This document shows, piece after piece, positions 38,553 through 64,000 of a stretch of 64,000 nt of DNA (the stretch's first letter is position 1; each line of letters begins with the position of its first letter). The position numbers and the translations under genes were made by a program. The stretch lies in NCBI RefSeq assembly GCF_031877795.1, contig NC_133955.1, positions 1,426,001 through 1,490,000 of the forward strand, in the 5' to 3' direction. The notes under the pieces are model-generated. The model did not search any database and was not told the origin of the DNA. It was given only the letters and a program-made list of their open reading frames with translations. Origin of the DNA: Strix aluco. Taxonomy: Eukaryota > Chordata > Aves > Strigiformes > Strigidae.

Positions 38553-39147
38553 TGTTATAGACTATCTTGCCAAAATGATGCAAGTTAGGACAAATTAAAT
38601 TTCAATTATTTATTTTAGCAAGCGGCAATAAGCAAAACAGCGCTGGGCGGCCGGGGAGTCCCTGCTCCACCAACGGCGCGCACCCACTTCCCGAGGGTCC
38701 GTCTTTTTTATATCCTCCGCCTTCCGTTATCGGGTCTCTCTGAGAGGTGTATCCTGCGTCTGCGCACTTTGCAGCTAGGGGGTCGCTCCATCCGGGTCTT
38801 CCTCACGTCACCAGCTTCTCGTATTTCCTACTTTCCTGAGAGTGGCTCACAAAGTCTTTGTTTATATCTTACAGAATATAGACACTACCCCCTTTTTTTC
38901 TTCTTCTTCTCCCCTTTGTCTTTCTCCCCTTTGTCCTTCTTCCCTTTCTCCCTCTTTTCAGTCTTTTGCCCAGTAGGAGTCCTTGCTTCAGCATTTCAAC
39001 TTAGATAAGCACTTACAGTCAGTTAGTCGTTACACAGTGTAATAGTTAAGATTAAGCTTAGGCCAACATAGTTTATGGAATAACATGTCACGAGCTCCCA
39101 GTATCTTCAATGGAATTTGATGAACAAACAGTTTACTGTCTATCACA
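38553..39147 (-). repeat. 3' LTR of the provirus
   Basis: This 595-bp copy is collinear with the 5' LTR. AATAAA at 38609-38614 is the expected polyadenylation signal for proviral transcripts. A second TATA box at 38706-38712 could drive transcription into the flanking host DNA below 38553. The env stop codon lies inside this LTR. Confidence 0.95.
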
Positions 39148-41662: not shown

Positions 41663-42059
41663 AGGTCTCCCAGTTTTTATCTTTGACCTCGGGTTCACGA
41701 CAGGGGACCCAGAGGATGTGCTTTCTACAGATCACCCTTAGGATCTGAGAGTGTTATTGAGTAGGCCAATTAGAGTGAGTGCACTCTCTTTAGTAAATAT
41801 TTTCTACCAAGTTTTAGAATCTCCAGTTTTAGGGCCTGATTAGTTAATCGCTATTCTCGTTAATAACACTGATTACAACTAGACCGAAGATTTATTCCAT
41901 GTGCATTATGAATCCCCCAGCCTTCTTTACATACATTACACTTTACACTTTATGCATATAAAAGGAAAACAAATATAAGTTTCAATTGGACAAAAATATC
42001 AGGGTCTCACTCATCGAGTCCTTCGTAGGTTCTTATCTCACAATGTGTGGAGAGTTCTT
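41663..42059 (-). other. Intergenic segment between pol and env
   Basis: About 400 bp separates the pol stop from the first env ATG. The env frame stays open back to 41698 without an ATG. A splice acceptor for env mRNA should lie here or just inside env, but I could not single one out. Confidence 0.5.
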
Positions 42060-45000
42060 TCAGGTTTTCCGAAGGGTGACTCGTAGATCCCCAGGAGGGC
42101 TGGTCACTTTCCAGGCCGGATCCTGTATAGGTCCCTTTACTCGGCTTGCGTGTGTCCACCCCTTCTCAGCAGTCCGAACAGCAGTTTCTGTAGTGATAAG
42201 AGCAACATAGGGTCCTTCCCAACGGGGGGTCAAAGAAGATTCTTTCCATGATTTGATTAGTACTTTATCTCCTGGTTGGATTTGATGCATGGCCACATCC
42301 AATGGAGGCCTTTGTACTACCATCCCCCGAGCCTGTAGTTGTTTTCTCCTTGCCATTAGCTGTATCAGGTAGGACTTTATCTTTAATTCTTCAAGTTGGG
42401 GGTGATCCGGTGGCATTTCTAAATCATAGGGCATCCCATATAGCATTTCAAAGGGAGAAATGCCTACATCAGTTCGGGGCTGAGTTCTGATATTTAACAA
42501 GGCTAAAGGGAGACACTTTACCCATGACATTTTAGTTTCTAACATTAGTTTGGTAAGTTGTTTTTTTATTTCTCCGTTCATACGTTCAACTTTCCCTGAG
42601 CTCTGCGGGTGCCATGGAGTATGGTATTGCCACTGTGTACCCAGGGCAGCCAAAGTCTCTTTGGCTACTCTGGATACAAAGTGTGGACCTCTATCTGAGT
42701 CTATTGCTTCTATTGCTCCATACCGAGGTATAATTTCTTCAAGTAATATCCTTGTTACTGTGTGAGCTGTGGCTCGGGCTGTGGGAAAGGCTTCTACGAA
42801 TTGAGTTAAATGATCTATAATTACTAATAGGTATTTATACCTCCCCACCTTTGGTAATTCAGTAAAGTCTATTTGTATTCTTGCAAAAGGTCTATGAGCC
42901 AATTCTCGCCCCCCATATACTCGTTTTCTTATTTGATGTTTATTTACTTTTTGACAAACGAGACATTCTCCTATCACTCGTTTGGCTATATCATATATCC
43001 CAATGCACATGTATTTAGTTGCAAATTGATCCACTAATGCCTGAGTTCCCCAATGAGTGTTTTTATGGAATTGCTGCATTATCTTGGTAGCTATGGGTTT
43101 TGGGAGAACTTCTCGGCCGTCCGGGAGTTCCCATTTTCCATTAGCTTTCTGTTTAATCCCCATTTGATTTAATTTTGCTTGTTCTTGAACAGTAAAACTT
43201 AAAAGTTCATAGGATTTTCCATGGAAAAAGCACCACTTAAACCCTGGTCTTTCACATACACATTCTATACCGTCTACTCCGTATTCTTTCCAGCAACCAT
43301 AACAGGGGAGGTAATTATCTCCACAATTAACACACTGCTTTCTGTCCTCTATCGGATCATCCAAGTCCAGTGCTGATAGCGCTGCTCTCTTTGCCTCTTG
43401 ATCAGCAAGGTTATTCCCCCGTACTAAAGGATTTAGCCCCCTCTGGTGTCCTTTTACGTGTACTACCGCAATTTCGCTGGGCCCTCGTATAGCTTGCAAA
43501 ATTTGTGATATTAACTCCTGATGTACTAGGCTCTTCCCCCGAGAATTGATTAAACCTCTTTCTTCCCATATTTTCCCAAAGGTATGTACTATTCCGAAGG
43601 CATATCTAGAATCAGTGTATATAGTTCCCACTTTTCCATTTAGTAATTGTAAAGCCTTTAATACTGCATATAATTCACATGCCTGTGCTGACCAGCTGGG
43701 ACTCAAGGGTCCTGATTCTATCACCTTAAAAGTTTTTCCATCAATTATGGCATACCCTGATTTTCTTTTCCCTTCTACCACTCGAGAGGATCCATCTACA
43801 AAAAATTTTTCTCCTTTCCCTAATTCCTCCTCTTCCAAATCTGGTCTTATCTTAGTCTGCTCCTCGATGTTACGGAGGCAATCATGAAAAAGATCTTGAC
43901 TAGGTTCTCCATACAAAAATTGGGCTGGATTTTGTAACGATGTTGTTTCAAGGGTCAGGTGGGGGGACGTAATGAGGATTGCCTCATATTTTACTAGTCT
44001 AGCATCGGTTATCCATTTTTCTGCTTTTTGCTGTAACACACCTCTAATATTATGGGGTGATAGTACCCTTAATTCACTACCAAAAGTTATTTTATGCGCT
44101 TCCTCAACTAACAAAGCAGCTGCCACCACAACTTGTAGGCACGTAGGCCATCCCCGACTTACGGGGTCCAGTAATTTTGAGATATATGCTACTGGTTTCT
44201 TTTTTCCTGCCCATTCCTGGGCTAATACTCCAAATGCAGTTCCTTCCTCTGTGTTGACAAATAAGAAAAATGGTCTTTTCAGGTCGGGCAAGCTCAGAAC
44301 AGGAGCATTTACTAATTCAGTTTTTAGTTCTTTTAACCGTTGATCATCTTCCTGAGTCCATTTTAATAATCCATTTTTAGTTATTTTGGTGTATAAAAAC
44401 TTTACTTTTCCACTATACCCTTCGATCCACTGCTTACAATATCCAAATAGCCCTAATAGCTGCCGGACTTGTTTTTTAGTTTTTGGACTTGGTAGGGAAA
44501 GTATCCCTTTCACCCTTTCTGGATCCAATTTCTTAGTTCCTTGACTTAATCGATGCCCTAGGTATTTAACTTCCTTTTCAACAAATTGCAATTTGGATTT
44601 TGACACTTTCAGTCCCTTTAAGCTCAGGAAATTTAACAACTTGATGCTTTCTTCCCGAACCCTTTCCTCATCCTCCCCTGCTATTAAAAGATCATCTACA
44701 TACTGGACTAGGGTAAGGGTATCTCCTATCTGGTAATCCTGCAAAATTTGTTCTAAAGCTTGCCCAAACAGGTTTGGGGATTCAGTGAAACCTTGGGGTA
44801 GGACTGTCCACCGGAGTTGAGTTTTCCTGTGGGTGTCTGGGTCCTCCCACTCAAAAGCAAAATAGTTTCTACACTCCTCTTTTAAGGGACATGCCCAGAA
44901 AGCGTCCTTCAAGTCTATTACACTGTACCACCGGTCGTTCGGGCCTAATTGACTTAAGAGAGTGTGTGGGTTAGCTACTACAGGGAATCTAGTTACAGTC

Positions 45001-45668
45001 CTTTTGTTAATTTCCCTTAGGTCATGGACTAATCTGTACCCCCCATCCGCCTTCTTGACAGGTAAAATGGGAGTATTAAAAGGGGACATGCAGGGTTCCA
45101 ATAATCCCTGCTTTATTAATCTCTGAATTTCTGGTTTTAATCCTTGCCTTCCCTCCAGAGGTATGGGATATTGCTTAATCCTCACCGGTACTTCAGGATC
45201 CCGGATGGTTACCATAAAAGGTTCAACATTCAGTTTTCCCACCGTATCCGGAGTGTACCACACTTCAGGGTTGATTTTAGTCTCATCTTCAACCCGTAGG
45301 GGGCATAGTTTGATTTCAAGTTTGTGTTCTGTTACTTCCAAACTAATTCCTAATTCAATCATTAGATCTCTCCCCAGTAGGTTATAATCTGCCTCAGGTA
45401 CTAACAATAAGGATCCCATCCCCACTTTAGAATCTGTTTCAAGGAGTACATCTTTAATTACTGGTACTCCGAATGGTTCTCCTTTCGCCCCAACTACTTG
45501 TACTTTTTCTGATGAAATCTTACATCCTTGGGGCAATGATTGAACAGTAGATCTCTCCGCTCCTGAATCTACTAAAAATTCTACCTCCTGTTGCTGAGGA
45601 CCTACTTTTAACTTTATCAAGGGCTCAGTTCGTTCTCGGGTCCCCAGCAAATAGAGCCCCTGACACCC
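42060..45668 (-). CDS. Pro-Pol polyprotein (protease, reverse transcriptase, RNase H, integrase)
   Basis: This is a 1202-residue open frame, counted from the codon after UAG, and is made by readthrough of gag. Protease has the FLVDSGAE active site at about 34. Reverse transcriptase has IDLKDAF (D about 252), LPQGF and the catalytic YVDD at about 323-326. RNase H acidic residues lie at about 625, 665, 686 and 756. A cysteine-rich insert (about 779-813) precedes integrase. Integrase shows the HHCC zinc motif (H868, H872, C902, C905) and D934, D992, E1028 with 35 residues between the last two. The C-terminus has a GPY-type domain (about 1152). All catalytic residues are present and there is no internal stop. 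Gammaretrovirus-like order and motifs. Confidence 0.95.
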   Translation of the reverse strand, partial: GCQGLYLLGTRERTEPLIKLKVGPQQQEVEFLVDSGAERSTVQSLPQGCKISSEKVQVVGAKGEPFGVPVIKDVLLETDSKVGMGSLLLVPEADYNLLGRDLMIELGISLEVTEHKLEIKLCPLRVEDETKINPEVWYTPDTVGKLNVEPFMVTIRDPEVPVRIKQYPIPLEGRQGLKPEIQRLIKQGLLEPCMSPFNTPILPVKKADGGYRLVHDLREINKRTVTRFPVVANPHTLLSQLGPNDRWYSVIDLKDAFWACPLKEECRNYFAFEWEDPDTHRKTQLRWTVLPQGFTESPNLFGQALEQILQDYQIGDTLTLVQYVDDLLIAGEDEERVREESIKLLNFLSLKGLKVSKSKLQFVEKEVKYLGHRLSQGTKKLDPERVKGILSLPSPKTKKQVRQLLGLFGYCKQWIEGYSGKVKFLYTKITKNGLLKWTQEDDQRLKELKTELVNAPVLSLPDLKRPFFLFVNTEEGTAFGVLAQEWAGKKKPVAYISKLLDPVSRGWPTCLQVVVAAALLVEEAHKITFGSELRVLSPHNIRGVLQQKAEKWITDARLVKYEAILITSPHLTLETTSLQNPAQFLYGEPSQDLFHDCLRNIEEQTKIRPDLEEEELGKGEKFFVDGSSRVVEGKRKSGYAIIDGKTFKVIESGPLSPSWSAQACELYAVLKALQLLNGKVGTIYTDSRYAFGIVHTFGKIWEERGLINSRGKSLVHQELISQILQAIRGPSEIAVVHVKGHQRGLNPLVRGNNLADQEAKRAALSALDLDDPIEDRKQCVNCGDNYLPCYGCWKEYGVDGIECVCERPGFKWCFFHGKSYELLSFTVQEQAKLNQMGIKQKANGKWELPDGREVLPKPIATKIMQQFHKNTHWGTQALVDQFATKYMCIGIYDIAKRVIGECLVCQKVNKHQIRKRVYGGRELAHRPFARIQIDFTELPKVGRYKYLLVIIDHLTQFVEAFPTARATAHTVTRILLEEIIPRYGAIEAIDSDRGPHFVSRVAKETLAALGTQWQYHTPWHPQSSGKVERMNGEIKKQLTKLMLETKMSWVKCLPLALLNIRTQPRTDVGISPFEMLYGMPYDLEMPPDHPQLEELKIKSYLIQLMARRKQLQARGMVVQRPPLDVAMHQIQPGDKVLIKSWKESSLTPRWEGPYVALITTETAVRTAEKGWTHASRVKGPIQDPAWKVTSPPGDLRVTLRKT

Positions 45669-45671
45669 CTA
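45621..45671 (-). promoter_or_regulatory. UAG readthrough signal between gag and pol
   Basis: The gag stop is TAG and the pol frame continues in phase 0. Downstream lie an 8-base spacer (GGGTGTCA) and then GGGGCTC (45660-45654), which pairs with GAGCCC (45626-45621) to form a hairpin. A second pairing of loop GGGGACC with downstream GGTCCTC is possible, giving a pseudoknot. The spacer length and the UAG-G context resemble the murine leukaemia virus readthrough element. Readthrough itself is inferred. Confidence 0.8.
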
Positions 45672-47138
45672 ATCTTCTTTAAACATTCTCTCATCCATCA
45701 TTCTCCTTCTGCAGCTCTTCTTTGTGTGACCTTTTCTTCCGCAATGAAAGCAGACAATACTCCCTTTTTCTCTCTCTCTCTCCGGTTCCTTTGATCTATA
45801 GCCTGTTCTTTGACCTTCTTGTTTTCTCCCAGCACTGTTCACTCTCTGTCCTTCCCTTATCGCAGCTACCATCATTCTGGTATGTTTCTTTTGAGTCTCG
45901 TCCTCCCTTCGGACATAGACTTTCTGTGCTTCTCTCAGTAATTCATCCAACCCCCGATCCTGCCAATCTTCTATTTTTTCTAGCTTCTTTCTAATATCTA
46001 TCCATGCTTTTGCCACAAATTGTGTCTTTAACAATGCCTGTCCCACTGGGGTATTAGGGTCTAGTCCTGAGTAAAGCTGAAGATTTTTCCTCAGTCTCTC
46101 TAACCACTCAGTAGGAGTTTCATCCTTTTTCTGATGTTCACTAAAGGCTTTGTTTATATTTTGTCCTCTAGGGACTGATTCCCTTATACCCTGGATTACA
46201 ATCGTCCTCAGGTCTTGCATATGACCTCTATCGATTTCATTTTGATTATTCCAATTAGGTCGATTTAGAGGCCATTTTACATCTGCTGCCGGACCTTGCT
46301 GATGCTGTTGATCCCAAATTCTCATTCCTGCTCTCCTGATCATATCCCTTTCTTCAACAGTGAATAGTATAGCCATTATGGCTTGTATTTCATCCCAGGT
46401 ATAGATGTTTGGTCCTAAAAACTGATCCACCCGCTCCGCCACACCTAAGGGATCCTCCAATAGATTCCCCATCTCTTTTTTAAATTCTCTGACGTCCCCT
46501 GAATTAAGAGGGACAGTCACATATCCCATGCCAGGCTGGGGTCCCCCCATCGCAACCTCCCTTAGGGGGTACAAGCCACTATCACCCCACCCCATTCTAG
46601 TTTGACTACGGGTTATTCGTCTCGGTTCTTTCGGGGATTCAGGTGGGGAGTCTGAATTCTCTGGGTCCTCCGGCGCAGTCGGAGGAGGTGAAGGCGCCGG
46701 AGGTGGGGGTGGAGGTATGTAAGGAGGAGGAGAGGTGGGAGGTTCGTCCTCATCACGTACCTTCTTTTTCTTAACTTTTTCTTTTAGAGGATATAGATTT
46801 ATTCGGGTATCTGATGCTATCCATACCTGTGCATATTCACTCTCCTCTAAATTAAAGGGTTCCCTTGAGTTGACATAAATGTTTAGGGCTTGGCAGACCC
46901 ATTCTTCAAAGGACCCAAAAACAGGCCAATAGAGATGATCGCCTCTGATTTGTTTCCCTCCCCAAACTTCCATACAATAATAAATCATTTTTGCTTTGTC
47001 CTTACCCCGCCTAGAGGGATAATCTTCCCAATGGTTTAACATCAAGCCTAAAGGGCTATCTGGTGGTATTTGGGGGTACCTCACCTCGGGTCCCAAATCA
47101 CCCATGGGATCAGAAGGCTTGCTTTTCTTCTGTCCCAT
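45669..47138 (-). CDS. Gag polyprotein
   Basis: Gag is a 489-residue structural polyprotein that assembles the particle core. I chose the ATG at 47138 because it gives MGQKKSKP, with a glycine at position 2 suitable for myristoylation, as in gammaretroviruses; the upstream in-frame extension has no ATG. In order there are: a matrix-like N-terminus; a proline-rich stretch with a PPPY late-domain motif at 137-140; a capsid-like region from about 190; a charged linker; and one CCHC zinc knuckle (CFHCGRKGHTKKSC, about 463-476) as the nucleocapsid. One knuckle and PPPY both fit the gamma type. It ends at TAG 45669-45671, in the same frame as pol. No frameshift or internal stop is seen. Confidence 0.93.
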   Translation of the reverse strand: MGQKKSKPSDPMGDLGPEVRYPQIPPDSPLGLMLNHWEDYPSRRGKDKAKMIYYCMEVWGGKQIRGDHLYWPVFGSFEEWVCQALNIYVNSREPFNLEESEYAQVWIASDTRINLYPLKEKVKKKKVRDEDEPPTSPPPYIPPPPPPAPSPPPTAPEDPENSDSPPESPKEPRRITRSQTRMGWGDSGLYPLREVAMGGPQPGMGYVTVPLNSGDVREFKKEMGNLLEDPLGVAERVDQFLGPNIYTWDEIQAIMAILFTVEERDMIRRAGMRIWDQQHQQGPAADVKWPLNRPNWNNQNEIDRGHMQDLRTIVIQGIRESVPRGQNINKAFSEHQKKDETPTEWLERLRKNLQLYSGLDPNTPVGQALLKTQFVAKAWIDIRKKLEKIEDWQDRGLDELLREAQKVYVRREDETQKKHTRMMVAAIREGQRVNSAGRKQEGQRTGYRSKEPEREREKGSIVCFHCGRKGHTKKSCRRRMMDERMFKED

Positions 47139-47312
47139 CTTCCGGAGCGCCTTCACACACTCACACAATTCGCTTCCCCCTTTTCGTGACCCAGTCCCTC
47201 GCGGGATATGGGAACTGCACTACCGAGGGGTCCGCACTCGCTTCGCCCTGCTGGGCGTCTCACACACCACGCTCCGGGAAACCCAACCCCAACCGAACGG
47301 TAACCGGCCTAT

Positions 47313-47318
47313 ACTCAC
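47313..47318 (-). promoter_or_regulatory. Candidate splice donor in the leader
   Basis: On the minus strand the leader between the primer site and gag contains C|GTGAGTATAG, a good donor match. It would be the natural upstream partner for a spliced env message. No acceptor was established. Confidence 0.35.
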
Positions 47319-47504
47319 GCAACCCTGCGTCTTCGTCCGGGGCTTCGTGCACAAAGATTACGGGGTTACCGGTATTTTTTTTTTTGCTTGTTGCCGAGTT
47401 TTGGAGTTCGTCGGTAGAGGGCGTGATGTGATAGCACTCAGCCGGGGCCGCTGAACTCAGCGGGGCGCGCCTCCCCGTATGGGGCTTCCCACCAGATTGC
47501 CTCT

Positions 47505-47522
47505 ATCCGAGTCACGGCACCA
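47505..47522 (-). promoter_or_regulatory. Primer binding site for tRNA-His
   Basis: Eighteen bases read on the plus strand as ATCCGAGTCACGGCACCA, which is the 3' end of animal tRNA-His including CCA. The proviral strand therefore carries TGGTGCCGTGACTCGGAT, four bases inside the 5' LTR. This fixes the primer tRNA for minus-strand DNA synthesis. Confidence 0.93.
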
Positions 47523-47526
47523 ATTT

Positions 47527-48121
47527 TGTTATAGACTATCTTGCCAAAATGATGCAAGTTAGGACAAATTAAATTTCAATTATTTATTTTAGCAAGCGGC
47601 AATAAGCAAAACAGCGCTGGGCGGCCGGGGAGTCCCTGCTCCACCAACGGCGCGCACCCACTTCCCGAGGGTCCGTCTTTTTTATATCCTCCGCCTTCCG
47701 TTATCGGGTCTCTCTGAGAGGTGTATCCTGCGTCTGCGCACTTTGCAGCTAGGGGGTCGCTCCATCCGGGTCTTCCTCACGTCACCAGCTTCTCGTATTT
47801 CCTACTTTCCTGAGAGTGGCTCACAAAGTCTTTGTTTATATCTTACAGAATATAGACACTACCCCCTTTTTTTCTTCTTCTTCTCCCCTTTGTCTTTCTC
47901 CCCTTTGTCCTTCTTCCCTTTCTCCCTCTTTTCAGTCTTTTGCCTAGTAGGAGTCCTTGCTTCAGCATTTCAACTTAGATAAGCACTTACAGTCAGTTAG
48001 TCGTTACACAGTGTAATAGTTAAGATTAAGCTTAGGCCAACATAGTTTATGGAATAACATGTCACGAGCTCCCAGTATCTTCAATGGAATTTGATGAACA
48101 AACAGTTTACTGTCTATCACA
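47527..48121 (-). repeat. 5' LTR of the provirus
   Basis: The 595-bp LTR runs TGTGATAG...CTATAACA on the minus strand. A TATA box (TATAAAA) lies at 47680-47686, and AATAAA at 47583-47588 would lie in R. U5 is therefore short, roughly the last 40 bp before 47527. A pyrimidine-rich tract on the plus strand (about 47868-47940) means U3 is purine-rich on the coding strand. It is identical to the 3' LTR except at one base. Confidence 0.95.
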
Positions 48122-51723: not shown

Positions 51724-52105
51724 CAATTTTTCAAAAACTGCAACCCTTTGTAAAAGAGCTCCTGAAAACCTTACCCGTGCTGGAGAGCTGCAGGAACGTG
51801 GGGAACAAGCTGCACAGCTCACAGCTGACAGCCACGGTGCAGCAGCCCTCCATCACGCTTGCCGCCTGTTGCCGTCAGCTCAGAAAAAAAGATGCTCTTC
51901 ACAGTGTCCCTGGAGCTGGCCCTGTGCCACCTGCCGCGGGGCAGCCCCTCCCCCGGACCGTGGCTGAAGGGGAGAGGCCGCACTGTGAGGTCACAGAGGC
52001 CTGCGGTGCCACGCCGGGGTGTGCAGTGCTGTTGCCAGGCAACACATCAGATGTGCCAGCAGCAGCAGTAGCAGCAACATTGTGCACATGCAGGTGAAGG
52101 GGACC
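51724..52105 (+). promoter_or_regulatory. Putative promoter and 5' region of the cassette gene
   Basis: This short region lies between the LTR-like remnant and the signal-peptide exon. It contains a GC-rich block, a CRE-like TGAGGTCA (about 51986) and a perfect X-box-type inverted repeat GTTGCCAGGCAAC at 52031-52043. A diverged copy of part of the downstream repeat unit lies at about 51899-51955. No TATA box is evident. Confidence 0.4.
52031..52043 (+). promoter_or_regulatory. X-box-like site (RFX-type inverted repeat)
   Basis: GTTGCC-A-GGCAAC fits the RFX consensus GTNRCC N(0-3) RGYAAC. It lies about 60 bp upstream of the signal-peptide exon. RFX sites are typical of ciliary, testis and MHC class II promoters. 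Function here is inferred from sequence and position only. Confidence 0.45.
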
Positions 52106-52193
52106 ATGGCTCCTACACTCATCCTCGTCCTGCTGCTAGTGGCCCTGCAAGCCCAGGGTGCCGGGGCTGCTCCATGGCAAGCGCGGGGATTAG
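52106..52193 (+). CDS. Exon 1 of putative secreted-protein gene: signal peptide
   Basis: I chose the ATG at 52106 because it has a strong context (GACCATGG); an in-frame ATG at 52088 would add six residues. It encodes MAPTLILVLLLVALQAQGAG followed by a short AAPWQARGL tail, a textbook signal peptide with probable cleavage near the Gly-Ala-Ala. The exon ends at the donor G|GTAGGT after one base of a codon (phase 1), which matches the phase of every candidate exon in the downstream 2364-bp units. No other copy of this exon exists in the window. I do not recognise the protein. The product is inferred to enter the secretory pathway. Confidence 0.6.
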
Positions 52194-53129
52194 GTAGGTG
52201 GGCAGATGAGGGCCAGCACCCAGCCCTGGCAGCGTGGGGCAGGACCCATTGCACCTCGGGCTGACAGCGGGGCTGGGGTCGTGGTGGGGCAGGGCCGGCA
52301 GAGCCGCAGAGCCGAGCTGGGCCGAGCGGGCTGTGTCCAGCTCCACGGGCAGCGGGAGGCAGATGTCCTGTACGGAGGCACAGGGGGCTGCCTTTGCTGC
52401 AGGGGCCTTTTCCGGGTGGACGGTGGGACTGGGAGCAGCAGTGAGAAAGTGTCCCTGGAGCCGGCCCTGCGCCGCCTGCCCCAGGGCAGCCTTGCCCCGG
52501 TCTGTGTGTCAGGGCCCGGCAGCACGGCAGCAGCCGGGCAATAGCCCTCGGGAGCACTTCTTCCCCAGGCCGGGCACAGCCACGTCCGGGGGGTTTGTGT
52601 CTCTGCCGTTCCCCGGCTGGACCCCAGCTTTCAGCCTCGGGGACGTCCCTCCTGGGGAGGTGTCCACTGGGGAAAACAGGAGCATTCCTGCTCCAGCCCT
52701 GCAATGCTCTCCCCGCTCTCCCCGGGCCAGCCTGGGTCACCATGGGACACACAGCCCCAGCCCACAGCCCGGGGAACAGACGGGGCAGCGCTGGGGCAGC
52801 CTCTCCCTGGTCACTGGGCTCTTCTCCGTCAGATAGGTGAACAATAACATCTTCCCGTGGGCGCCTTTTCTGCCCAGAAAACGTGTCCCAGGAAGAAATG
52901 CCCAGGGGCCATACATTTATCCATCCGGTCCTTGAGGGCTGTTGCACAGGGCCTGGAAACAGTATTTTGAAAGCCTCCAGGTGCAACTAACAGGTCACCC
53001 CGGCCCCTCTGCACCTCTGGAAATGTCCACCCACGTCTGGGTCCCATGGCATTACCTGACCCCCTCCAGTCACTGCAGGTCACTGGCAAAGGAGCTCCCA
53101 ACCTCTACTGGGAATGTGCTTGATTACAG

Positions 53130-53201
53130 CTGTGCCCGAAGCCAACGGCCACCCGACGGCTCGGCCGGATCTTGTCTCGGGGCCTGGGGGCGATCGCACA
53201 G
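53130..53201 (+). CDS. Cassette exon A (72 bp), unit 1
   Basis: The acceptor is GATTACAG and the donor ACAG|GTATGT. The exon is 72 bp, phase 1-1, 24 codons. After joining to exon 1 it reads AVPEANGHPTARPDLVSGPG and then GDRT. It is open and joins in frame to both exon 1 and the previous unit's last exon. Identical copies lie at 55494-55565, 57858-57929, 60222-60293 and 62586-62657. The polypyrimidine tract before the acceptor is weak, so this is the least certain of the four main exons. Confidence 0.45.
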
Positions 53202-53261
53202 GTATGTCCCCTGAATGAGCGAGCACTTAGGTTTTAATATTCCGTTCTTGTGAAATTTCAG

Positions 53262-53354
53262 TTAACGCTCTCTTGGCCCACGCTCAGCCGAGCAGAAGAG
53301 GGGCAGAGAGGGACCGGCTTGGGCTCAGAGATGTGAGCACTCTGCCTTGCGAAG
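53262..53354 (+). CDS. Optional cassette exon A' (93 bp), unit 1
   Basis: The acceptor AAATTTCAG has a good upstream pyrimidine stretch; the donor GAAG|GTGTCT is weaker. The exon is 93 bp, phase 1-1, and open for 31 codons (begins NALLAHAQPSRRGAERDRLG after the split codon). It could be a constitutive, alternative or chance exon. Copies lie at 55626-55718, 57990-58082, 60354-60446 and 62718-62810. Confidence 0.3.
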
Positions 53355-53661
53355 GTGTCTGTGCCAGCCTCTCCGGCCCTGCGCTGCTTCCAGTGCCTGC
53401 TGCAAGGCCAGCGGTGGGCTTGTTGGGGTTTAGAGCTGGTGCGAGCTCCAGGGAGTCCTTTCTCCCAACACCTCCGTGCATGTCTTGTTTTAGATCCTCC
53501 TGCTCCAGGCGCCCAGTACCTGTCTGCACAGCGCTCCTGATGGAGGGGGGGGATGAGTGCCACGGAGCACTCCCGTGTTGGAAGTGCCTTCGCGGCCGTT
53601 CAGACCTGCAGAGGTGTATTGAAATAGCTCATGGGAGCTTCTCTGTTCTGTCTGTTCACAG

Positions 53662-53733
53662 ACGTGGCTGGAGGCGATCACTATCCTGTTTCCCAGCTGG
53701 GTTCCAGGGGGGACGCTCAGGGAGATCACATGG
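53662..53733 (+). CDS. Cassette exon B (72 bp), unit 1
   Basis: The acceptor is CTGTTCACAG and the donor ATGG|GTACGT. The exon is 72 bp, phase 1-1, 24 codons reading DVAGGDHYPVSQLGSRGDAQ and then GDHM. It is rich in Gly and Asp with an RGD tripeptide. Copies lie at 56026-56097, 58390-58461, 60754-60825 and 63118-63189. Confidence 0.55.
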
Positions 53734-53923
53734 GTACGTCGCGGCTTTTGAATTCCTCTGAGAGCCGCCGGCTCAAAGCCCAGATGTGAGCGAGGCGTCT
53801 CTCGCGGCTGTGAGAACGTGGACCTGCACTGTGTGTGCCGTGCCATTGCGTGATCCGCTCGTATGTTCTGCTGCTCGGTCATGACGGTGTATGATGGAAA
53901 TTCTCGTGGGTGTTTGGTTGCAG

Positions 53924-53995
53924 ATGTGGGTACAGGGAAGGCTTTTCCAGCTCCTCATCCGGGTCCTGCGCTGGCGCTTCCCTGGCGTCGCAGGG
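53924..53995 (+). CDS. Cassette exon C (72 bp), unit 1
   Basis: The acceptor is TTTGGTTGCAG and the donor AGGG|GTAAGT. The exon is 72 bp, phase 1-1, 24 codons beginning DVGTGKAFPAPHPGPALALP and ending in a basic WRRR. It has the same length and phase as exons A and B and the same DV start as B, which suggests old internal duplication. Copies lie at 56288-56359, 58652-58723, 61016-61087 and 63380-63451. Confidence 0.55.
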
Positions 53996-54086
53996 GTAAG
54001 TAGTCAGTCTTGACTGACTCCACAGACGACACACTTGTTTTCAATATTCTATTTGTGAGAAATTTAACTTTGGACTTTCCATTCAG

Positions 54087-54194
54087 GTCCTCAAAGAGCA
54101 AAGTACATCTCTGAAACAGGAAAACCCTCCCAGTGGACCTCAGAAGTCGTCCAGGGAATTCTGAAGGAGCTGGACAGGACCACCCGAGCCCACG
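54087..54194 (+). CDS. Cassette exon D (108 bp), unit 1, major version
   Basis: The acceptor is TTCCATTCAG and the donor CACG|GTGGGT. The exon is 108 bp, phase 1-1, 36 codons. It begins PQRAKYISETGKPSQWTSEV after the split codon and continues with an amphipathic-looking VQGILKELDRTTRAH. It appears identical in units 1 to 4 (54087-54194, 56451-56558, 58815-58922, 61179-61286). No stop in frame. I do not recognise a domain. Confidence 0.6.
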
Positions 54195-55493
54195 GTGGGT
54201 GTCTGTCCCTGTTAAGCAGAAGCCTTGTCAAGCTGAAGTTTTAGATGCGTGGATGGACAAGCCGTAGCCTGCACAGTAGGAAGGGGCCGCTCAGAGCCTC
54301 ACTGCAGCGACACTCAGTTACAGGCCTTGCGGGCGCTGGCAAGCTGCAGACATGGTCGAGTCTCTGGTGGCAGTTGGGGTTCCAGCCGAGCCCCAGGAAC
54401 AGCTGCTGCCCCAGTTACAGCCTTACTGGGACCAGAGCTGTTCTGGGCAGACGGTGGTGTCCAGCTGGCAGGAGCTGGTGGGACTCACCGCCTTGAGTGG
54501 GTGAGGGACTTGCCGAGGATCTGATTGCTGCTCAGTGCTGAGAGGGCAGCACCTTGCCAGTCCCCAGAGGGGAGAGCGCAGGGGATGCACAGGCAGCGTG
54601 GGGCAGCACCCACTGCACCTCGGGCTGACAGCGGGGCTGGGGTCGTGGTGGGGCAGGGCCGGCAGAGCTGCAGGGCTGGGCTGGGCCGAGTGAGCTGTGC
54701 CCAGCTCCGCGGGCAGCGGGAGGCAGATGTCCTGTACGGAGGCACAGGGGGCTGCCTTTGCTGCAGGGGCCTTTTCCGGGTGGACGGTGGGACTGGGAGC
54801 AGCAGTGAGAAAGTGTCCCTGGAGCCGGCCCTGCGCCGCCTGCCCCAGGGCAGCCTTGCCCCGGTCTGTGTGTCAGGGCCCGGCAGCACGGCAGCAGCCG
54901 GGCAATAGCCCTCGGGAGCACTTCTTCCCCAGGCCGGGCACAGCCACGTCCGGGGGGTTTGTGTCTCTGCCGTTCCCCGGCTGGACCCCAGCTTTCAGCC
55001 TCGGGGACGTCCCTCCTGGGGAGGTGTCCACTGGGGAAAACAGGAGCATTCCTGCTCCAGCCCTGCAATGCTCTCCCCGCTCTCCCCGGGCCAGCCTGGG
55101 TCACCATGGGACACACAGCCCCAGCCCACAGCCCGGGGAACAGACGGGGCAGCGCTGGGGCAGCCTCTCCCTGGTCACTGGGCTCTTCTCCGTCAGATAG
55201 GTGAACAATAACATCTTCCCGTGGGCGCCTTTTCTGCCCAGAAAACGTGTCCCAGGAAGAAATGCCCAGGGGCCATACATTTATCCATCCGGTCCTTGAG
55301 GGCTGTTGCACAGGGCCTGGAAACAGTATTTTGAAAACCTCCAGGTGCAACTAACAGGTCACCCCGGCCCCTCTGCACCTCTGGAAATGTCCACCCACGT
55401 CTGGGTCCCATGGCATTACCTGACCCCCTCCAGTCACTGCAGGTCACTGGCAAAGGAGCTCCCAACCTCTACTGGGAATGTGCTTGATTACAG

Positions 55494-58400
55494 CTGTGCC
55501 CGAAGCCAACGGCCACCCGACGGCTCGGCCGGATCTTGTCTCGGGGCCTGGGGGCGATCGCACAGGTATGTCCCCTGAATGAGCGAGCACTTAGGTTTTA
55601 ATATTCCGTTCTTGTGAAATTTCAGTTAACGCTCTCTTGGCCCACGCTCAGCCGAGCAGAAGAGGGGCAGAGAGGGACCGGCTTGGGCTCAGAGATGTGA
55701 GCACTCTGCCTTGCGAAGGTGTCTGTGCCAGCCTCTCCGGCCCTGCGCTGCTTCCAGTGCCTGCTGCAAGGCCAGCGGTGGGCTTGTTGGGGTTTAGAGC
55801 TGGTGCGAGCTCCAGGGAGTCCTTTCTCCCAACACCTCCGTGCATGTCTTGTTTTAGATCCTCCTGCTCCAGGCGCCCAGTACCTGTCTGCACAGCGCTC
55901 CTGATGGAGGGGGGGGATGAGTGCCACGGAGCACTCCCGTGTTGGAAGTGCCTTCGCGGCCGTTCAGACCTGCAGAGGTGTATTGAAATAGCTCATGGGA
56001 GCTTCTCTGTTCTGTCTGTTCACAGACGTGGCTGGAGGCGATCACTATCCTGTTTCCCAGCTGGGTTCCAGGGGGGACGCTCAGGGAGATCACATGGGTA
56101 CGTCGCGGCTTTTGAATTCCTCTGAGAGCCGCCGGCTCAAAGCCCAGATGTGAGCGAGGCGTCTCTCGCGGCTGTGAGAACGTGGACCTGCACTGTGTGT
56201 GCCGTGCCATTGCGTGATCCGCTCGTATGTTCTGCTGCTCGGTCATGACGGTGTATGATGGAAATTCTCGTGGGTGTTTGGTTGCAGATGTGGGTACAGG
56301 GAAGGCTTTTCCAGCTCCTCATCCGGGTCCTGCGCTGGCGCTTCCCTGGCGTCGCAGGGGTAAGTAGTCAGTCTTGACTGACTCCACAGACGACACACTT
56401 GTTTTCAATATTCTATTTGTGAGAAATTTAACTTTGGACTTTCCATTCAGGTCCTCAAAGAGCAAAGTACATCTCTGAAACAGGAAAACCCTCCCAGTGG
56501 ACCTCAGAAGTCGTCCAGGGAATTCTGAAGGAGCTGGACAGGACCACCCGAGCCCACGGTGGGTGTCTGTCCCTGTTAAGCAGAAGCCTTGTCAAGCTGA
56601 GGTTTTAGATGCGTGGATGGACAAGCCGTAGCCTGCACAGTAGGAAGGGGCCGCTCAGAGCCTCACTGCAGCGACACTCAGTTACAGGCCTTGCGGGCGC
56701 TGGCAAGCTGCAGACATGGTCGAGTCTCTGGTGGCAGTTGGGGTTCCAGCCGAGCCCCAGGAACAGCTGCTGCCCCAGTTACAGCCTTACTGGGACCAGA
56801 GCTGTTCTGGGCAGACGGTGGTGTCCAGCTGGCAGGAGCTGGTGGGACTCACCGCCTTGAGTGGGTGAGGGACTTGCCGAGGATCTGATTGCTGCTCAGT
56901 GCTGAGAGGGCAGCACCTTGCCAGTCCCCAGAGGGGAGAGCGCAGGGGATGCACAGGCAGCGTGGGGCAGCACCCACTGCACCTCGGGCTGACAGCGGGG
57001 CTGGGGTCGTGGTGGGGCAGGGCCGGCAGAGCTGCAGGGCTGGGCTGGGCCGAGTGAGCTGTGCCCAGCTCCGCGGGCAGCGGGAGGCAGATGTCCTGTA
57101 CGGAGGCACAGGGGGCTGCCTTTGCTGCAGGGGCCTTTTCCGGGTGGACGGTGGGACTGGGAGCAGCAGTGAGAAAGTGTCCCTGGAGCCGGCCCTGCGC
57201 CGCCTGCCCCAGGGCAGCCTTGCCCCGGTCTGTGTGTCAGGGCCCGGCAGCACGGCAGCAGCCGGGCAATAGCCCTCGGGAGCACTTCTTCCCCAGGCCA
57301 GGCACAGCCACGTCCGGGGGGTTTGTGTCTCTGCCGTTCCCCGGCTGGACCCCAGCTTTCAGCCTCGGGGACGTCCCTCCTGGGGAGGTGTCCACTGGGG
57401 AAAACAGGAGCATTCCTGCTCCAGCCCTGCAATGCTCTCCCCGCTCTCCCCGGGCCAGCCTGGGTCACCATGGGACACACAGCCCCAGCCCACAGCCCGG
57501 GGAACAGACGGGGCAGCGCTGGGGCAGCCTCTCCCTGGTCACTGGGCTCTTCTCCGTCAGATAGGTGAACAATAACATCTTCCCGTGGGCGCCTTTTCTG
57601 CCCAGAAAACGTGTCCCAGGAAGAAATGCCCAGGGGCCATACATTTATCCATCCGGTCCTTGAGGGCTGTTGCACAGGGCCTGGAAACAGTATTTTGAAA
57701 GCCTCCAGGTGCAACTAACAGGTCACCCCGGCCCCTCTGCACCTCTGGAAATGTCCACCCACGTCTGGGTCCCATGGCATTACCTGACCCCCTCCAGTCA
57801 CTGCAGGTCACTGGCAAAGGAGCTCCCAACCTCTACTGGGAATGTGCTTGATTACAGCTGTGCCCGAAGCCAACGGCCACCCGACGGCTCGGCCGGATCT
57901 TGTCTCGGGGCCTGGGGGCGATCGCACAGGTATGTCCCCTGAATGAGCGAGCACTTAGGTTTTAATATTCCGTTCTTGTGAAATTTCAGTTAACGCTCTC
58001 TTGGCCCACGCTCAGCCGAGCAGAAGAGGGGCAGAGAGGGACCGGCTTGGGCTCAGAGATGTGAGCACTCTGCCTTGCGAAGGTGTCTGTGCCAGCCTCT
58101 CCGGCCCTGCGCTGCTTCCAGTGCCTGCTGCAAGGCCAGCGGTGGGCTTGTTGGGGTTTAGAGCTGGTGCGAGCTCCAGGGAGTCCTTTCTCCCAACACC
58201 TCCGTGCATGTCTTGTTTTAGATCCTCCTGCTCCAGGCGCCCAGTACCTGTCTGCACAGCGCTCCTGATGGAGGGGGGGGATGAGTGCCACGGAGCACTC
58301 CCGTGTTGGAAGTGCCTTCACGGCCGTTCAGACCTGCAGAGGTGTATTGAAATAGCTCATGGGAGCTTCTCTGTTCTGTCTGTTCACAGACGTGGCTGGA

Positions 58401-61286
58401 GGCGATCACTATCCTGTTTCCCAGCTGGGTTCCAGGGGGGACGCTCAGGGAGATCACATGGGTACGTCGCGGCTTTTGAATTCCTCTGAGAGCCGCCGGC
58501 TCAAAGCCCAGATGTGAGCGAGGCGTCTCTCGCGGCTGTGAGAACGTGGACCTGCACTGTGTGTGCCGTGCCATTGCGTGATCCGCTCGTATGTTCTGCT
58601 GCTCGGTCATGACGGTGTATGATGGAAATTCTCGTGGGTGTTTGGTTGCAGATGTGGGTACAGGGAAGGCTTTTCCAGCTCCTCATCCGGGTCCTGCGCT
58701 GGCGCTTCCCTGGCGTCGCAGGGGTAAGTAGTCAGTCTTGACTGACTCCACAGACGACACACTTGTTTTCAATATTCTATTTGTGAGAAATTTAACTTTG
58801 GACTTTCCATTCAGGTCCTCAAAGAGCAAAGTACATCTCTGAAACAGGAAAACCCTCCCAGTGGACCTCAGAAGTCGTCCAGGGAATTCTGAAGGAGCTG
58901 GACAGGACCACCCGAGCCCACGGTGGGTGTCTGTCCCTGTTAAGCAGAAGCCTTGTCAAGCTGAGGTTTTAGATGCGTGGATGGACAAGCCGTAGCCTGC
59001 ACAGTAGGAAGGGGCCGCTCAGAGCCTCACTGCAGCGACACTCAGTTACAGGCCTTGCGGGCGCTGGCAAGCTGCAGACATGGTCGAGTCTCTGGTGGCA
59101 GTTGGGGTTCCAGCCGAGCCCCAGGAACAGCTGCTGCCCCAGTTACAGCCTTACTGGGACCAGAGCTGTTCTGGGCAGACGGTGGTGTCCAGCTGGCAGG
59201 AGCTGGTGGGACTCACCGCCTTGAGTGGGTGAGGGACTTGCCGAGGATCTGATTGCTGCTCAGTGCTGAGAGGGCAGCACCTTGCCAGTCCCCAGAGGGG
59301 AGAGCGCAGGGGATGCACAGGCAGCGTGGGGCAGCACCCACTGCACCTCGGGCTGACAGCGGGGCTGGGGTCGTGGTGGGGCAGGGCCGGCAGAGCTGCA
59401 GGGCTGGGCTGGGCCGAGTGAGCTGTGCCCAGCTCCGCGGGCAGCGGGAGGCAGATGTCCTGTACGGAGGCACAGGGGGCTGCCTTTGCTGCAGGGGCCT
59501 TTTCCGGGTGGACGGTGGGACTGGGAGCAGCAGTGAGAAAGTGTCCCTGGAGCCGGCCCTGCGCCGCCTGCCCCAGGGCAGCCTTGCCCCGGTCTGTGTG
59601 TCAGGGCCCGGCAGCACGGCAGCAGCCGGGCAATAGCCCTCGGGAGCACTTCTTCCCCAGGCCGGGCACAGCCACGTCCGGGGGGTTTGTGTCTCTGCCG
59701 TTCCCCGGCTGGACCCCAGCTTTCAGCCTCGGGGACGTCCCTCCTGGGGAGGTGTCCACTGGGGAAAACAGGAGCATTCCTGCTCCAGCCCTGCAATGCT
59801 CTCCCCGCTCTCCCCGGGCCAGCCTGGGTCACCATGGGACACACAGCCCCAGCCCACAGCCCGGGGAACAGACGGGGCAGCGCTGGGGCAGCCTCTCCCT
59901 GGTCACTGGGCTCTTCTCCGTCAGATAGGTGAACAATAACATCTTCCCGTGGGCGCCTTTTCTGCCCAGAAAACGTGTCCCAGGAAGAAATGCCCAGGGG
60001 CCATACATTTATCCATCCGGTCCTTGAGGGCTGTTGCACAGGGCCTGGAAACAGTATTTTGAAAGCCTCCAGGTGCAACTAACAGGTCACCCCGGCCCCT
60101 CTGCACCTCTGGAAATGTCCACCCACGTCTGGGTCCCATGGCATTACCTGACCCCCTCCAGTCACTGCAGGTCACTGGCAAAGGAGCTCCCAACCTCTAC
60201 TGGGAATGTGCTTGATTACAGCTGTGCCCGAAGCCAACGGCCACCCGACGGCTCGGCCGGATCTTGTCTCGGGGCCTGGGGGCGATCGCACAGGTATGTC
60301 CCCTGAATGAGCGAGCACTTAGGTTTTAATATTCCGTTCTTGTGAAATTTCAGTTAACGCTCTCTTGGCCCACGCTCAGCCGAGCAGAAGAGGGGCAGAG
60401 AGGGACCGGCTTGGGCTCAGAGATGTGAGCACTCTGCCTTGCGAAGGTGTCTGTGCCAGCCTCTCCGGCCCTGCGCTGCTTCCAGTGCCTGCTGCAAGGC
60501 CAGCGGTGGGCTTGTTGGGGTTTAGAGCTGGTGCGAGCTCCAGGGAGTCCTTTCTCCCAACACCTCCGTGCATGTCTTGTTTTAGATCCTCCTGCTCCAG
60601 GCGCCCAGTACCTGTCTGCACAGCGCTCCTGATGGAGGGGGGGGATGAGTGCCACGGAGCACTCCCGTGTTGGAAGTGCCTTCGCGGCCGTTCAGACCTG
60701 CAGAGGTGTATTGAAATAGCTCATGGGAGCTTCTCTGTTCTGTCTGTTCACAGACGTGGCTGGAGGCGATCACTATCCTGTTTCCCAGCTGGGTTCCAGG
60801 GGGGACGCTCAGGGAGATCACATGGGTACGTCGCGGCTTTTGAATTCCTCTGAGAGCCGCCGGCTCAAAGCCCAGATGTGAGCGAGGCGTCTCTCGCGGC
60901 TGTGAGAACGTGGACCTGCACTGTGTGTGCCGTGCCATTGCGTGATCCGCTCGTATGTTCTGCTGCTCGGTCATGACGGTGTATGATGGAAATTCTCGTG
61001 GGTGTTTGGTTGCAGATGTGGGTACAGGGAAGGCTTTTCCAGCTCCTCATCCGGGTCCTGCGCTGGCGCTTCCCTGGCGTCGCAGGGGTAAGTAGTCAGT
61101 CTTGACTGACTCCACAGACGACACACTTGTTTTCAATATTCTATTTGTGAGAAATTTAACTTTGGACTTTCCATTCAGGTCCTCAAAGAGCAAAGTACAT
61201 CTCTGAAACAGGAAAACCCTCCCAGTGGACCTCAGAAGTCGTCCAGGGAATTCTGAAGGAGCTGGACAGGACCACCCGAGCCCACG
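55494..61286 (+). CDS. Cassette exons of units 2-4 (three further repeats of A-B-C-D)
   Basis: Each unit repeats exons A, B, C and D at +2364, +4728 and +7092 from unit 1, with the same splice sites, lengths and phases. Because D ends and A begins in phase 1, the cassettes can be joined one after another in a single reading frame, adding 108 residues per unit (139 with A'). None of these units contains a signal-peptide exon, which argues for one long gene and against a row of separate genes. I saw no differences inside the exons among units 1-4. Confidence 0.5.
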
Positions 61287-63542
61287 GTGGGTGTCTGTCC
61301 CTGTTAAGCAGAAGCCTTGTCAAGCTGAGGTTTTAGATGCGTGGATGGACAAGCCGTAGCCTGCACAGTAGGAAGGGGCCGCTCAGAGCCTCACTGCAGC
61401 GACACTCAGTTACAGGCCTTGCGGGCGCTGGCAAGCTGCAGACATGGTCGAGTCTCTGGTGGCAGTTGGGGTTCCAGCCGAGCCCCAGGAACAGCTGCTG
61501 CCCCAGTTACAGCCTTACTGGGACCAGAGCTGTTCTGGGCAGACGGTGGTGTCCAGCTGGCAGGAGCTGGTGGGACTCACCGCCTTGAGTGGGTGAGGGA
61601 CTTGCCGAGGATCTGATTGCTGCTCAGTGCTGAGAGGGCAGCACCTTGCCAGTCCCCAGAGGGGAGAGCGCAGGGGATGCACAGGCAGCGTGGGGCAGCA
61701 CCCACTGCACCTCGGGCTGACAGCGGGGCTGGGGTCGTGGTGGGGCAGGGCCGGCAGAGCTGCAGGGCTGGGCTGGGCCGAGTGAGCTGTGCCCAGCTCC
61801 GCGGGCAGCGGGAGGCAGATGTCCTGTACGGAGGCACAGGGGGCTGCCTTTGCTGCAGGGGCCTTTTCCGGGTGGACGGTGGGACTGGGAGCAGCAGTGA
61901 GAAAGTGTCCCTGGAGCCGGCCCTGCGCCGCCTGCCCCAGGGCAGCCTTGCCCCGGTCTGTGTGTCAGGGCCCGGCAGCACGGCAGCAGCCGGGCAATAG
62001 CCCTCGGGAGCACTTCTTCCCCAGGCCGGGCACAGCCACGTCCGGGGGGTTTGTGTCTCTGCCGTTCCCCGGCTGGACCCCAGCTTTCAGCCTCGGGGAC
62101 GTCCCTCCTGGGGAGGTGTCCACTGGGGAAAACAGGAGCATTCCTGCTCCAGCCCTGCAATGCTCTCCCCGCTCTCCCCGGGCCAGCCTGGGTCACCATG
62201 GGACACACAGCCCCAGCCCACAGCCCGGGGAACAGACGGGGCAGCGCTGGGGCAGCCTCTCCCTGGTCACTGGGCTCTTCTCCGTCAGATAGGTGAACAA
62301 TAACATCTTCCCGTGGGCGCCTTTTCTGCCCAGAAAACGTGTCCCAGGAAGAAATGCCCAGGGGCCATACATTTATCCATCCGGTCCTTGAGGGCTGTTG
62401 CACAGGGCCTGGAAACAGTATTTTGAAAGCCTCCAGGTGCAACTAACAGGTCACCCCGGCCCCTCTGCACCTCTGGAAATGTCCACCCACGTCTGGGTCC
62501 CATGGCATTACCTGACCCCCTCCAGTCACTGCAGGTCACTGGCAAAGGAGCTCCCAACCTCTACTGGGAATGTGCTTGATTACAGCTGTGCCCGAAGCCA
62601 ACGGCCACCCGACGGCTCGGCCGGATCTTGTCTCGGGGCCTGGGGGCGATCGCACAGGTATGTCCCCTGAATGAGCGAGCACTTAGGTTTTAATATTCCG
62701 TTCTTGTGAAATTTCAGTTAACGCTCTCTTGGCCCACGCTCAGCCGAGCAGAAGAGGGGCAGAGAGGGACCGGCTTGGGCTCAGAGATGTGAGCACTCTG
62801 CCTTGCGAAGGTGTCTGTGCCAGCCTCTCCGGCCCTGCGCTGCTTCCAGTGCCTGCTGCAAGGCCAGCGGTGGGCTTGTTGGGGTTTAGAGCTGGTGCGA
62901 GCTCCAGGGAGTCCTTTCTCCCAACACCTCCGTGCATGTCTTGTTTTAGATCCTCCTGCTCCAGGCGCCCAGTACCTGTCTGCACAGCGCTCCTGATGGA
63001 GGGGGGGGATGAGTGCCACGGAGCACTCCCGTGTTGGAAGTGCCTTCGCGGCCGTTCAGACCTGCAGAGGTGTATTGAAATAGCTCATGGGAGCTTCTCT
63101 GTTCTGTCTGTTCACAGACGTGGCTGGAGGCGATCACTATCCTGTTTCCCAGCTGGGTTCCAGGGGGGACGCTCAGGGAGATCACATGGGTACGTCGCGG
63201 CTTTTGAATTCCTCTGAGAGCCGCCGGCTCAAAGCCCAGATGTGAGCGAGGCGTCTCTCGCGGCTGTGAGAACGTGGACCTGCACTGTGTGTGCCGTGCC
63301 ATTGCGTGATCCGCTCGTATGTTCTGCTGCTCGGTCATGACGGTGTATGATGGAAATTCTCGTGGGTGTTTGGTTGCAGATGTGGGTACAGGGAAGGCTT
63401 TTCCAGCTCCTCATCCGGGTCCTGCGCTGGCGCTTCCCTGGCGTCGCAGGGGTAAGTAGTCAGTCTTGACTGACTCCACAGACGACACACTTGTTTTCAA
63501 TATTCTATTTGTGAGAAATTTAACTTTGGACTTTCCATTCAG

Positions 63543-63650
63543 GTCCTCAAGGAGCAAAGTATAACGTTGAATCAGGAAAACCCTTTCAGCAGTCCTCAGA
63601 AGTCCTCGAGGACATCCCGAAGGCAGTGGACAGGGCCGTTACAGCCTACG
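63543..63650 (+). CDS. Cassette exon D (108 bp), divergent version in unit 5
   Basis: It occupies the same position with the same splice sites, the same 108-bp length and the same phase as D in the other units. About 27 bases differ, in 19 of 36 codons, and only two of those changes look silent (TAC/TAT, ATT/ATC). It reads PQGAKYNVESGKPFQQSSEV and then LEDIPKAVDRAVTAY, still open. Conserved positions include PQ, AK-Y, GKP, Q, SEV, K and DR. The introns on both sides match the other units without visible change. This pattern supports the exon being coding and under diversifying pressure or cassette exchange. Confidence 0.65.
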
Positions 63651-64000
63651 GTGGGTGTCTGTCCCTGTTAAGCAGAAGCCTTGTCAAGCTGAGGTTTTAG
63701 ATGCGTGGATGGACAAGCCGTAGCCTGCACAGTAGGAAGGGGCCGCTCAGAGCCTCACTGCAGCGACACTCAGTTACAGGCCTTGCGGGCGCTGGCAAGC
63801 TGCAGACATGGTCGAGTCTCTGGTGGCAGTTGGGGTTCCAGCCGAGCCCCAGGAACAGCTGCTGCCCCAGTTACAGCCTTACTGGGACCAGAGCTGTTCT
63901 GGGCAGACGGTGGTGTCCAGCTGGCAGGAGCTGGTGGGACTCACCGCCTTGAGTGGGTGAGGGACTTGCCGAGGATCTGATTGCTGCTCAGTGCTGAGAG

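Follow-up and report, generated by a model that had tools for sequence, protein, structure and literature searches.

Two divergent types of one short exon in an otherwise homogenised tandem exon array of the tawny owl

Organization of the array gene and its surroundings

We analysed a window of 64,000 bp (the whole stretch of DNA under study, C25:1426001-1490000) from the 1.41-Gb genome of the tawny owl, Strix aluco. Its right part enters a gene that consists, in order, of a signal-peptide-like exon, seven tandem units of four exons each (A-B-C-D), an exon E and a transmembrane-like exon, with a unit size of exactly 2364 bp throughout the array in the window (Table 1). Exons A-D are all of phase 1 and, therefore, whole-exon changes leave the reading frame intact. 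The signal-peptide-like exon was also matched at the C182, C28, C19, C41, C30 and inverted C25 loci, and exon E has matches at 29 sites of the owl genome. One of the family genes (L010), a single-unit copy in inverted orientation, occupies the minus strand of C25 from 1502668 to about 1505970, ~5 kb past the transmembrane exon of the array gene. X-boxes are bound by RFX factors in ciliated and sperm-forming cells; from this role and the X-box-like palindrome preceding the start codon, one might guess that the array gene is expressed in testis.

Table 1 Features of the array gene (window positions, unless the contig C25 is named).
Feature	Position	Strand	Remarks
RFX X-box-like palindrome GTTGCCAGGCAAC	52031..52043	.	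pattern scan; 44 bp upstream of ATG
First coding exon, signal-peptide-like (by eye)	52088..52193	+	106 bp, ends phase 1
Array of 2364-bp units	52228..64000	+	units 1-5 in window; units 6-7 run on to C25:1494378
Exon A, unit 1	53130..53201	+	72 bp; identical copies start 55494, 57858, 60222, 62586
Exon B, unit 1	53662..53733	+	72 bp; identical copies start 56026, 58390, 60754, 63118
Exon C, unit 1	53924..53995	+	72 bp; identical copies start 56288, 58652, 61016, 63380
Exon D, type D, unit 1	54087..54194	+	108 bp
Exon D, type D, unit 2	56451..56558	+	
Exon D, type D, unit 3	58815..58922	+	
Exon D, type D, unit 4	61179..61286	+	
Exon D, type D5, unit 5	63543..63650	+	divergent exon under study
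Identical D5 exons past window	C25:1491907 and C25:1494271		
Exon E	C25:1494967-1495074		downstream of array; transmembrane-like exon then follows

The array gene lies within a larger, recently multiplied high-copy segment. A 601-bp piece of its flank (window 36000-36600) had 40 scored matches in the genome, including six on C28 (782373-1107382), ~62-69 kb apart and shown as 100%, and six on C19 (3361428-3640923) at 99%. A retrovirus-like element lies on the minus strand at 38552-48121, bounded by a pair of LTRs with 99.8% identity (38552-39147 and 47526-48121); its open frames correspond to Gag p30, to protease/RT/RNase H/integrase and to a third product without Pfam match. The shorter spacing at C28 suggests that the element is probably absent there. 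The window also contains a satellite array (1-18767) with periods of 174 and 335 bp, and a strongly G-rich degenerate repeat (22065-25237) of ~10-bp units (TTTGGGGGGA), with a GC skew of 0.71 in 22001-24000.

The gene probably encodes a single-pass membrane protein of an uncharacterised family found so far only in birds. We retrieved at least 66 related proteins at E <= 0.01 from the best 7988 candidates by shared words; nearly all those named are labelled uncharacterized or hypothetical, and the part of the literature that was searched contained no description of this bird protein family. The gene models of eagle, crane and gannet have a single copy of the unit exons (some without A or C), and several continue into exon E and a membrane helix. 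Pfam searches with the array protein and 11 relatives gave no sensible match for the repeated part. Those of P0012 and P0013 that passed the cut-off pointed to bacterial-type families with no relation to the repeat, and the Ig and ELYS matches in P0051 and P0026 fell outside the family exons and were, therefore, taken for fused gene models. PDB sequences, Rfam and viral contigs provided nothing useful for the array. The AlphaFold model of one relative (P0016) was poor (mean pLDDT 47), with helices at residues 100-125 (end of exon D and start of exon E) and 187-233 (the membrane helix).

Divergence of exon D between the units of the array

The exon D of unit 5, which we call type D5, differs at 27 of 108 bases from that of units 1-4 (type D), whose exon D copies are identical. 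The differences begin at base 9 of the exon (codon 4) and end at base 105, and the length, frame and splice sites of the exon are preserved. The flanks of this exon match the array, with 0 differences in 2858 bp on the left (compared with the sequence one unit upstream, spanning exons A, B and C) and 350 bp on the right (compared as far as the window edge), so that 27/108 in the exon stands against 0/3208 in the flanks (Fisher p = 2e-42). The same homogeneity characterises units 1-4, where the four D-to-D stretches (2256 bp each, exon D excluded) show 0-4 pairwise differences. The basic observation of the first-pass annotation is confirmed. D and D5 share 75% identity across the 108 bp with no indel, and no unrelated segment has been swapped in. 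A possible second D-like pseudo-exon in the A-B intron was rejected (alignment score of 22 for a shuffle 95% point of 21).

Other claims of that annotation needed correction. The differences had been called almost all amino-acid changing, which is too strong: 21 are nonsynonymous and 6 synonymous (Nei-Gojobori), and 17 of 36 residues are changed. Since 27 random stop-free changes alter a mean of 16.1 residues (95% range 12-20), this number agrees with neutral expectation. Unit 5 had also been singled out as hypervariable and, beyond the right edge of the window, D5 turned out to be present in units 5, 6 and 7. The resulting order of D exons along C25 (D D D D D5 D5 D5) indicates that D5 is the last, membrane-proximal type and not a single-unit oddity. 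As for the proposed mechanism, the idea of a pool of variable cassettes with conversion among them gained support, given that several D types exist and that a recombinant exon shows exchange between them (see below), and the accelerated amino-acid change in unit 5 did not, so that the earlier interpretation of this exon is partly supported.

Accelerated evolution of the unit 5 exon by point mutation under positive selection is indeed already contradicted for D versus D5. Ks is 0.276, in contrast with 0 in the flanks, and Ka is 0.313; the Ka/Ks ratio of 1.14 has a bootstrap interval of 0.44-3.6, with nonsynonymous divergence about equal to synonymous. In addition, D5 retains ancestral residues, is identical in six units (C25 units 5-7 and three units on C182) and groups with an exon from C28. 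The nonsynonymous divergence of exons A-D does exceed intron divergence in four listed comparisons involving C25 (e.g., 0.141 versus 0.062, p = 7e-5), which would fit such acceleration; however, of the four listed pairs that do not involve the C25 array, three lack a significant nonsynonymous excess over intron. We regard this explanation as extremely unlikely.

Exon types and locus grouping at C28

The divergence peak recurs at a second locus. The gene on C28 has two normal units, followed by a unit reduced to one D5-like exon and then by exon E. The D5-like exon differs at 12/108 bases from D5 and at 24-25/108 from D. Its difference from the neighbouring D exon (25/108, versus 8 in 346 bp of flank; p = 7e-11) is concentrated in the exon, and this also holds for D5 against the D5-like exon (12/108 in the exon versus 8/346 in the flanks, p = 0.0004). 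We then compared the quartet formed by the D and D5 exons of C25 and the D and D5-like exons of C28. Within the exon, 15 sites grouped the sequences by type, none by locus and one crosswise, whereas in the right flank two sites grouped them by locus and none by type (54 bp of left flank were uninformative). The contrast was significant (15:0 versus 0:2, Fisher p = 0.007), with just two sites on the flank side. A DNA tree of exon D joined the C28 D5-like exon to the C25 and C182 D5 exons with support of 100/99, and the alternative in which the D exons of the C25 and C182 arrays form one clade was rejected by an AU test (p = 0.0012). The flank tree was mostly unresolved, but the flanks of D and D5 are identical within C25 and likewise within C182. 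Exon sites sorting by type and flank sites by locus imply that the D and D5 types predate the split of the loci and that the unit has otherwise been homogenised within each locus since then. Given the D5-like exon of C28 and this discordance, we rejected the idea that a single recent import into C25 explains everything.

The edges of the peak are sharp. Even between the two C28 exons, the flank differences closest to exon D lie 29 bp to its left and 34 bp to its right, and we saw no gradual decay of divergence into the introns near the exon; the raised divergence of the C-D intron (see below) adjoins exon C. The D5-type exons share their near flanks with D units (~54 bp on the left and 290 bp on the right at C28, the whole unit at C25 and C182), and the genome search revealed, among the matches listed, no D5 donor with different introns.

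A second array and a recombinant exon

C182 carries a near-identical copy of the array, cut by the end of the contig. Along the gene, its D exons follow each other as chimaera, D, D5, D, D5, D and D5. The D-type exon of unit 6 (C182:2467-2574, L011) is frameshifted and contains a stop, in an array that is otherwise near-identical. C182 unit 1 contains the single recombinant exon (at C182:14284). Up to base 51, 10 of its 11 D/D5 sites match D5; base 25 is as in D, and so are all 16 sites from base 63 onwards. Conversion or recombination between D types is observed in this exon. Across the 18 exon-D haplotypes there are 89 incompatible site pairs, which require a minimum of six recombination or recurrent-mutation events within 108 bp (Rm 6). 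Over 3610 bp upstream of the gene, C182 has three mismatches with the window. The flank segment begins 16088 bp upstream of the signal exon on both C25 and C182, and this identical distance suggests that C182 also spans the intervening retrovirus-like element. C182 may be either the other haplotype of the C25 locus or a very recent duplicate of it.

Such exchange could be invoked to explain the whole pattern, with short conversion tracts limited to the exon moving D exons among units and loci (possibly from spliced or cDNA templates), selection being unnecessary. The coincidence of the divergence edges with the exon would agree with this, as would the recombinant exon, the minimum number of events in the haplotypes and the nearby retrovirus-like element with its open pol frame. 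However, a 108-bp match at 75% identity is a poor conversion substrate, there is no sign of a spliced template, and the shared near flanks of the D5 exons, together with the lack of a donor with different introns among the matches listed, also speak against it. We consider exon-limited exchange rather unlikely. Another concern is an assembly or polishing artefact, since long arrays of identical repeats are difficult to assemble and the C182 contig breaks off within its own array. Nevertheless, six units on two contigs carry the same in-frame D5 exon, a third contig has a related exon with differences of its own, and errors would not yield ancestral residues; an artefact is, in our opinion, exceedingly improbable.

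Variation across the owl gene family

We aligned 44 units (36 distinct) from 28 fetched stretches plus the window, dropping those without 150 bp of left flank or 320 bp of right flank inside the stretch. Among eight locus representatives, exons differed by 9.6-16.1% and introns by 4.9-6.7%, except for the C-D intron (10.4%). In eight listed pairs, divergence was higher in exons than in introns at p < 0.001 in five, including all four that involve the C25 array, and the other three were not significant. The claim that divergence is confined to the exon held beyond unit 5. In nine D-type units from the C25, C28 and C19 arrays, no segment varied more than exon D: 20 of its 108 sites are variable, compared with 51/1211 for the introns (p = 2e-7) and 15/216 for exons A-C (p = 0.002). 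Both pS (0.065) and pN (0.068) in exon D exceed the intron value (0.014), which fits an older ancestry of the exon better than amino-acid selection alone, since the latter leaves pS at intron level. Pooled pN/pS for exon D was 0.82 (eight loci) and 1.04, and most pairs of D exons had nearly the same Ka and Ks; exons A-C gave a nominal pooled pN/pS of 1.36. Two protein-level contrasts were not significant: in P0012, 5 of 36 residues vary in D versus 2 of 48 in A+B (p = 0.13), and a peptide-level test of exons against translated intron in P0010 gave p = 0.07.

The genome holds more than two D types, with 14 distinct in-frame D proteins among the 44 units in addition to the C28 D5-like exon. In the C19, C30, C41 and inverted-C25 stretches that were read (which exclude the ends of two C19 genes), we found no D5-type exon, suggesting that two types are not required everywhere. 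On C41, nine dispersed single-unit genes (L014, L026-L031, L035 and L036) keep the exon order and have a frameshifted exon D with a stop; one of them, L031, has no TM match. A tenth C41 gene (L032, at 8.8 Mb) has its exon D in frame.

These data bear on a neutral alternative, a heterology barrier, according to which D and D5 had already diverged so far that conversion halts at their edges and the introns homogenise without any selection. Under this scenario one would expect the sharp edges seen at two loci, the near equality of Ka and Ks with the pooled pN/pS values given above, and the frameshifted copies of exon D in C182 unit 6 and the nine C41 genes. Yet, it has to explain why the introns, which normally diverge faster, were not the first barrier, and recombination within exon D does happen. 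It seems to us very unlikely.

Age and ancestry of the two types

D5 has S18, L22 and A32, residues found in 12, 12 and 11, respectively, of 12 non-strigid rows, and D is derived at these positions. The reverse applies to S15, L26 and L29, where D keeps the residues common in the outgroup and D5 is derived. As each type retains some outgroup-common residues, neither is simply the ancestor of the other. Introducing 27 random changes into D restored S18, L22 and A32 in 6 of 20,000 stop-free trials; the test was weaker (0.036) when only the targets were random and the mutated positions were kept as observed. A two-residue insertion is common to D5 and the other strigid rows and absent from the 12 outgroup rows. 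Segments (69) had been found in 58 of the 66 proteins, and we built a peptide tree from 19 hand-picked rows and 36 columns, in which D5, on a long branch, was placed among the strigids (98/96) but not in the D clade of Strix (95/96). An AU test rejected uniting D5 with only the three D rows of the tawny owl (p = 0.012), but not a grouping that also takes in the row of Strix uralensis (p = 0.535). Among the listed family proteins (66, annotated ones only), D5 occurred only in P0001 of Strix aluco.

Proposed concerted evolution of the unit with one exon exempt

We propose that the unit probably undergoes concerted evolution from which exon D is exempt, D and D5 being discrete old classes that are kept apart. 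D5 would characterise the last, membrane-proximal unit and D the internal ones. The 2.4-kb unit would continue to be homogenised by unequal crossing-over and gene conversion, but D and D5 exons would not overwrite each other, and the result would be a divergence peak with sharp borders at a single exon. D5 may then have spread to adjacent units by unit duplication, as the run of three D5 exons on C25 and the alternation of D and D5 on C182 would suggest. What protects exon D, we infer, is selection against the mixing of D and D5. The edges of the peak are sharper than simple tract decay would suggest, which could mean exon-limited exchange instead, and they are compatible with a heterology barrier too; likewise, Ka close to Ks in D could mean that the exon is drifting. 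A more speculative variant would make exon D a freely recombining cassette of a multi-copy surface-protein family of birds, with haplotype-specific D strings that serve as an individual barcode under balancing selection, for instance in gamete or cell recognition, and with C25 and C182 as two haplotypes of one locus; we find this quite unlikely.

The array offers an unusually clean natural case of one short exon evading concerted evolution in a homogenised array. Within a single genome, two types of the exon occur at three loci or haplotypes, along with a recombinant exon and two arrangements of the array, such that selection and a heterology barrier, as competing explanations for divergent exons, become countable in long reads from few owls. 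The array also points to a fast-evolving, highly multiplied family of bird membrane proteins.

Comparable patterns are known elsewhere. In the L and M opsin genes, introns are homogenised and exons are divergent at synonymous and nonsynonymous sites, with contrasting exon and intron trees, which has been read as selection against conversion in exons (PMC3213168, PMC3924837). The owl array resembles these primate genes in its near-identical introns, in an exon divergent at both Ks and Ka, and in grouping by type in the exon and by locus in the introns. However, the opsins are two genes and the owl types are exons within the tandem units of one gene; exon divergence in the owl is 25%, versus 0 in the flank, and the owl types are known from one genome. 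Accelerated exon evolution (ASSET) in the three-finger toxin genes of snakes likewise combines similar introns with different exon segments (PMC2474615). Unlike in ASSET, D5 is homologous to D over its full length, synonymous and nonsynonymous divergence are about equal, and there has been no switch to an unrelated segment. Clustered variable exons, such as those of protocadherins and UGT1, share with the owl array tandem copies, conversion and exon diversity; they join alternative variable exons to shared downstream exons, whereas the owl gene repeats a four-exon unit within one ectodomain.

The closest likeness within the family itself concerns P0013 of the Humboldt penguin (Spheniscus humboldti), which also has tandem exon units, four of 142 residues each. 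In contrast with the owl array, its unit is A-B-C-D-E, there is no second D type, and the units differ at one residue only, an R/G variation at residue 4 of exon D. The tandem expansion of P0013 is independent of that of the owl. This R/G variation involves the same residue pair as the first amino-acid difference between D and D5.
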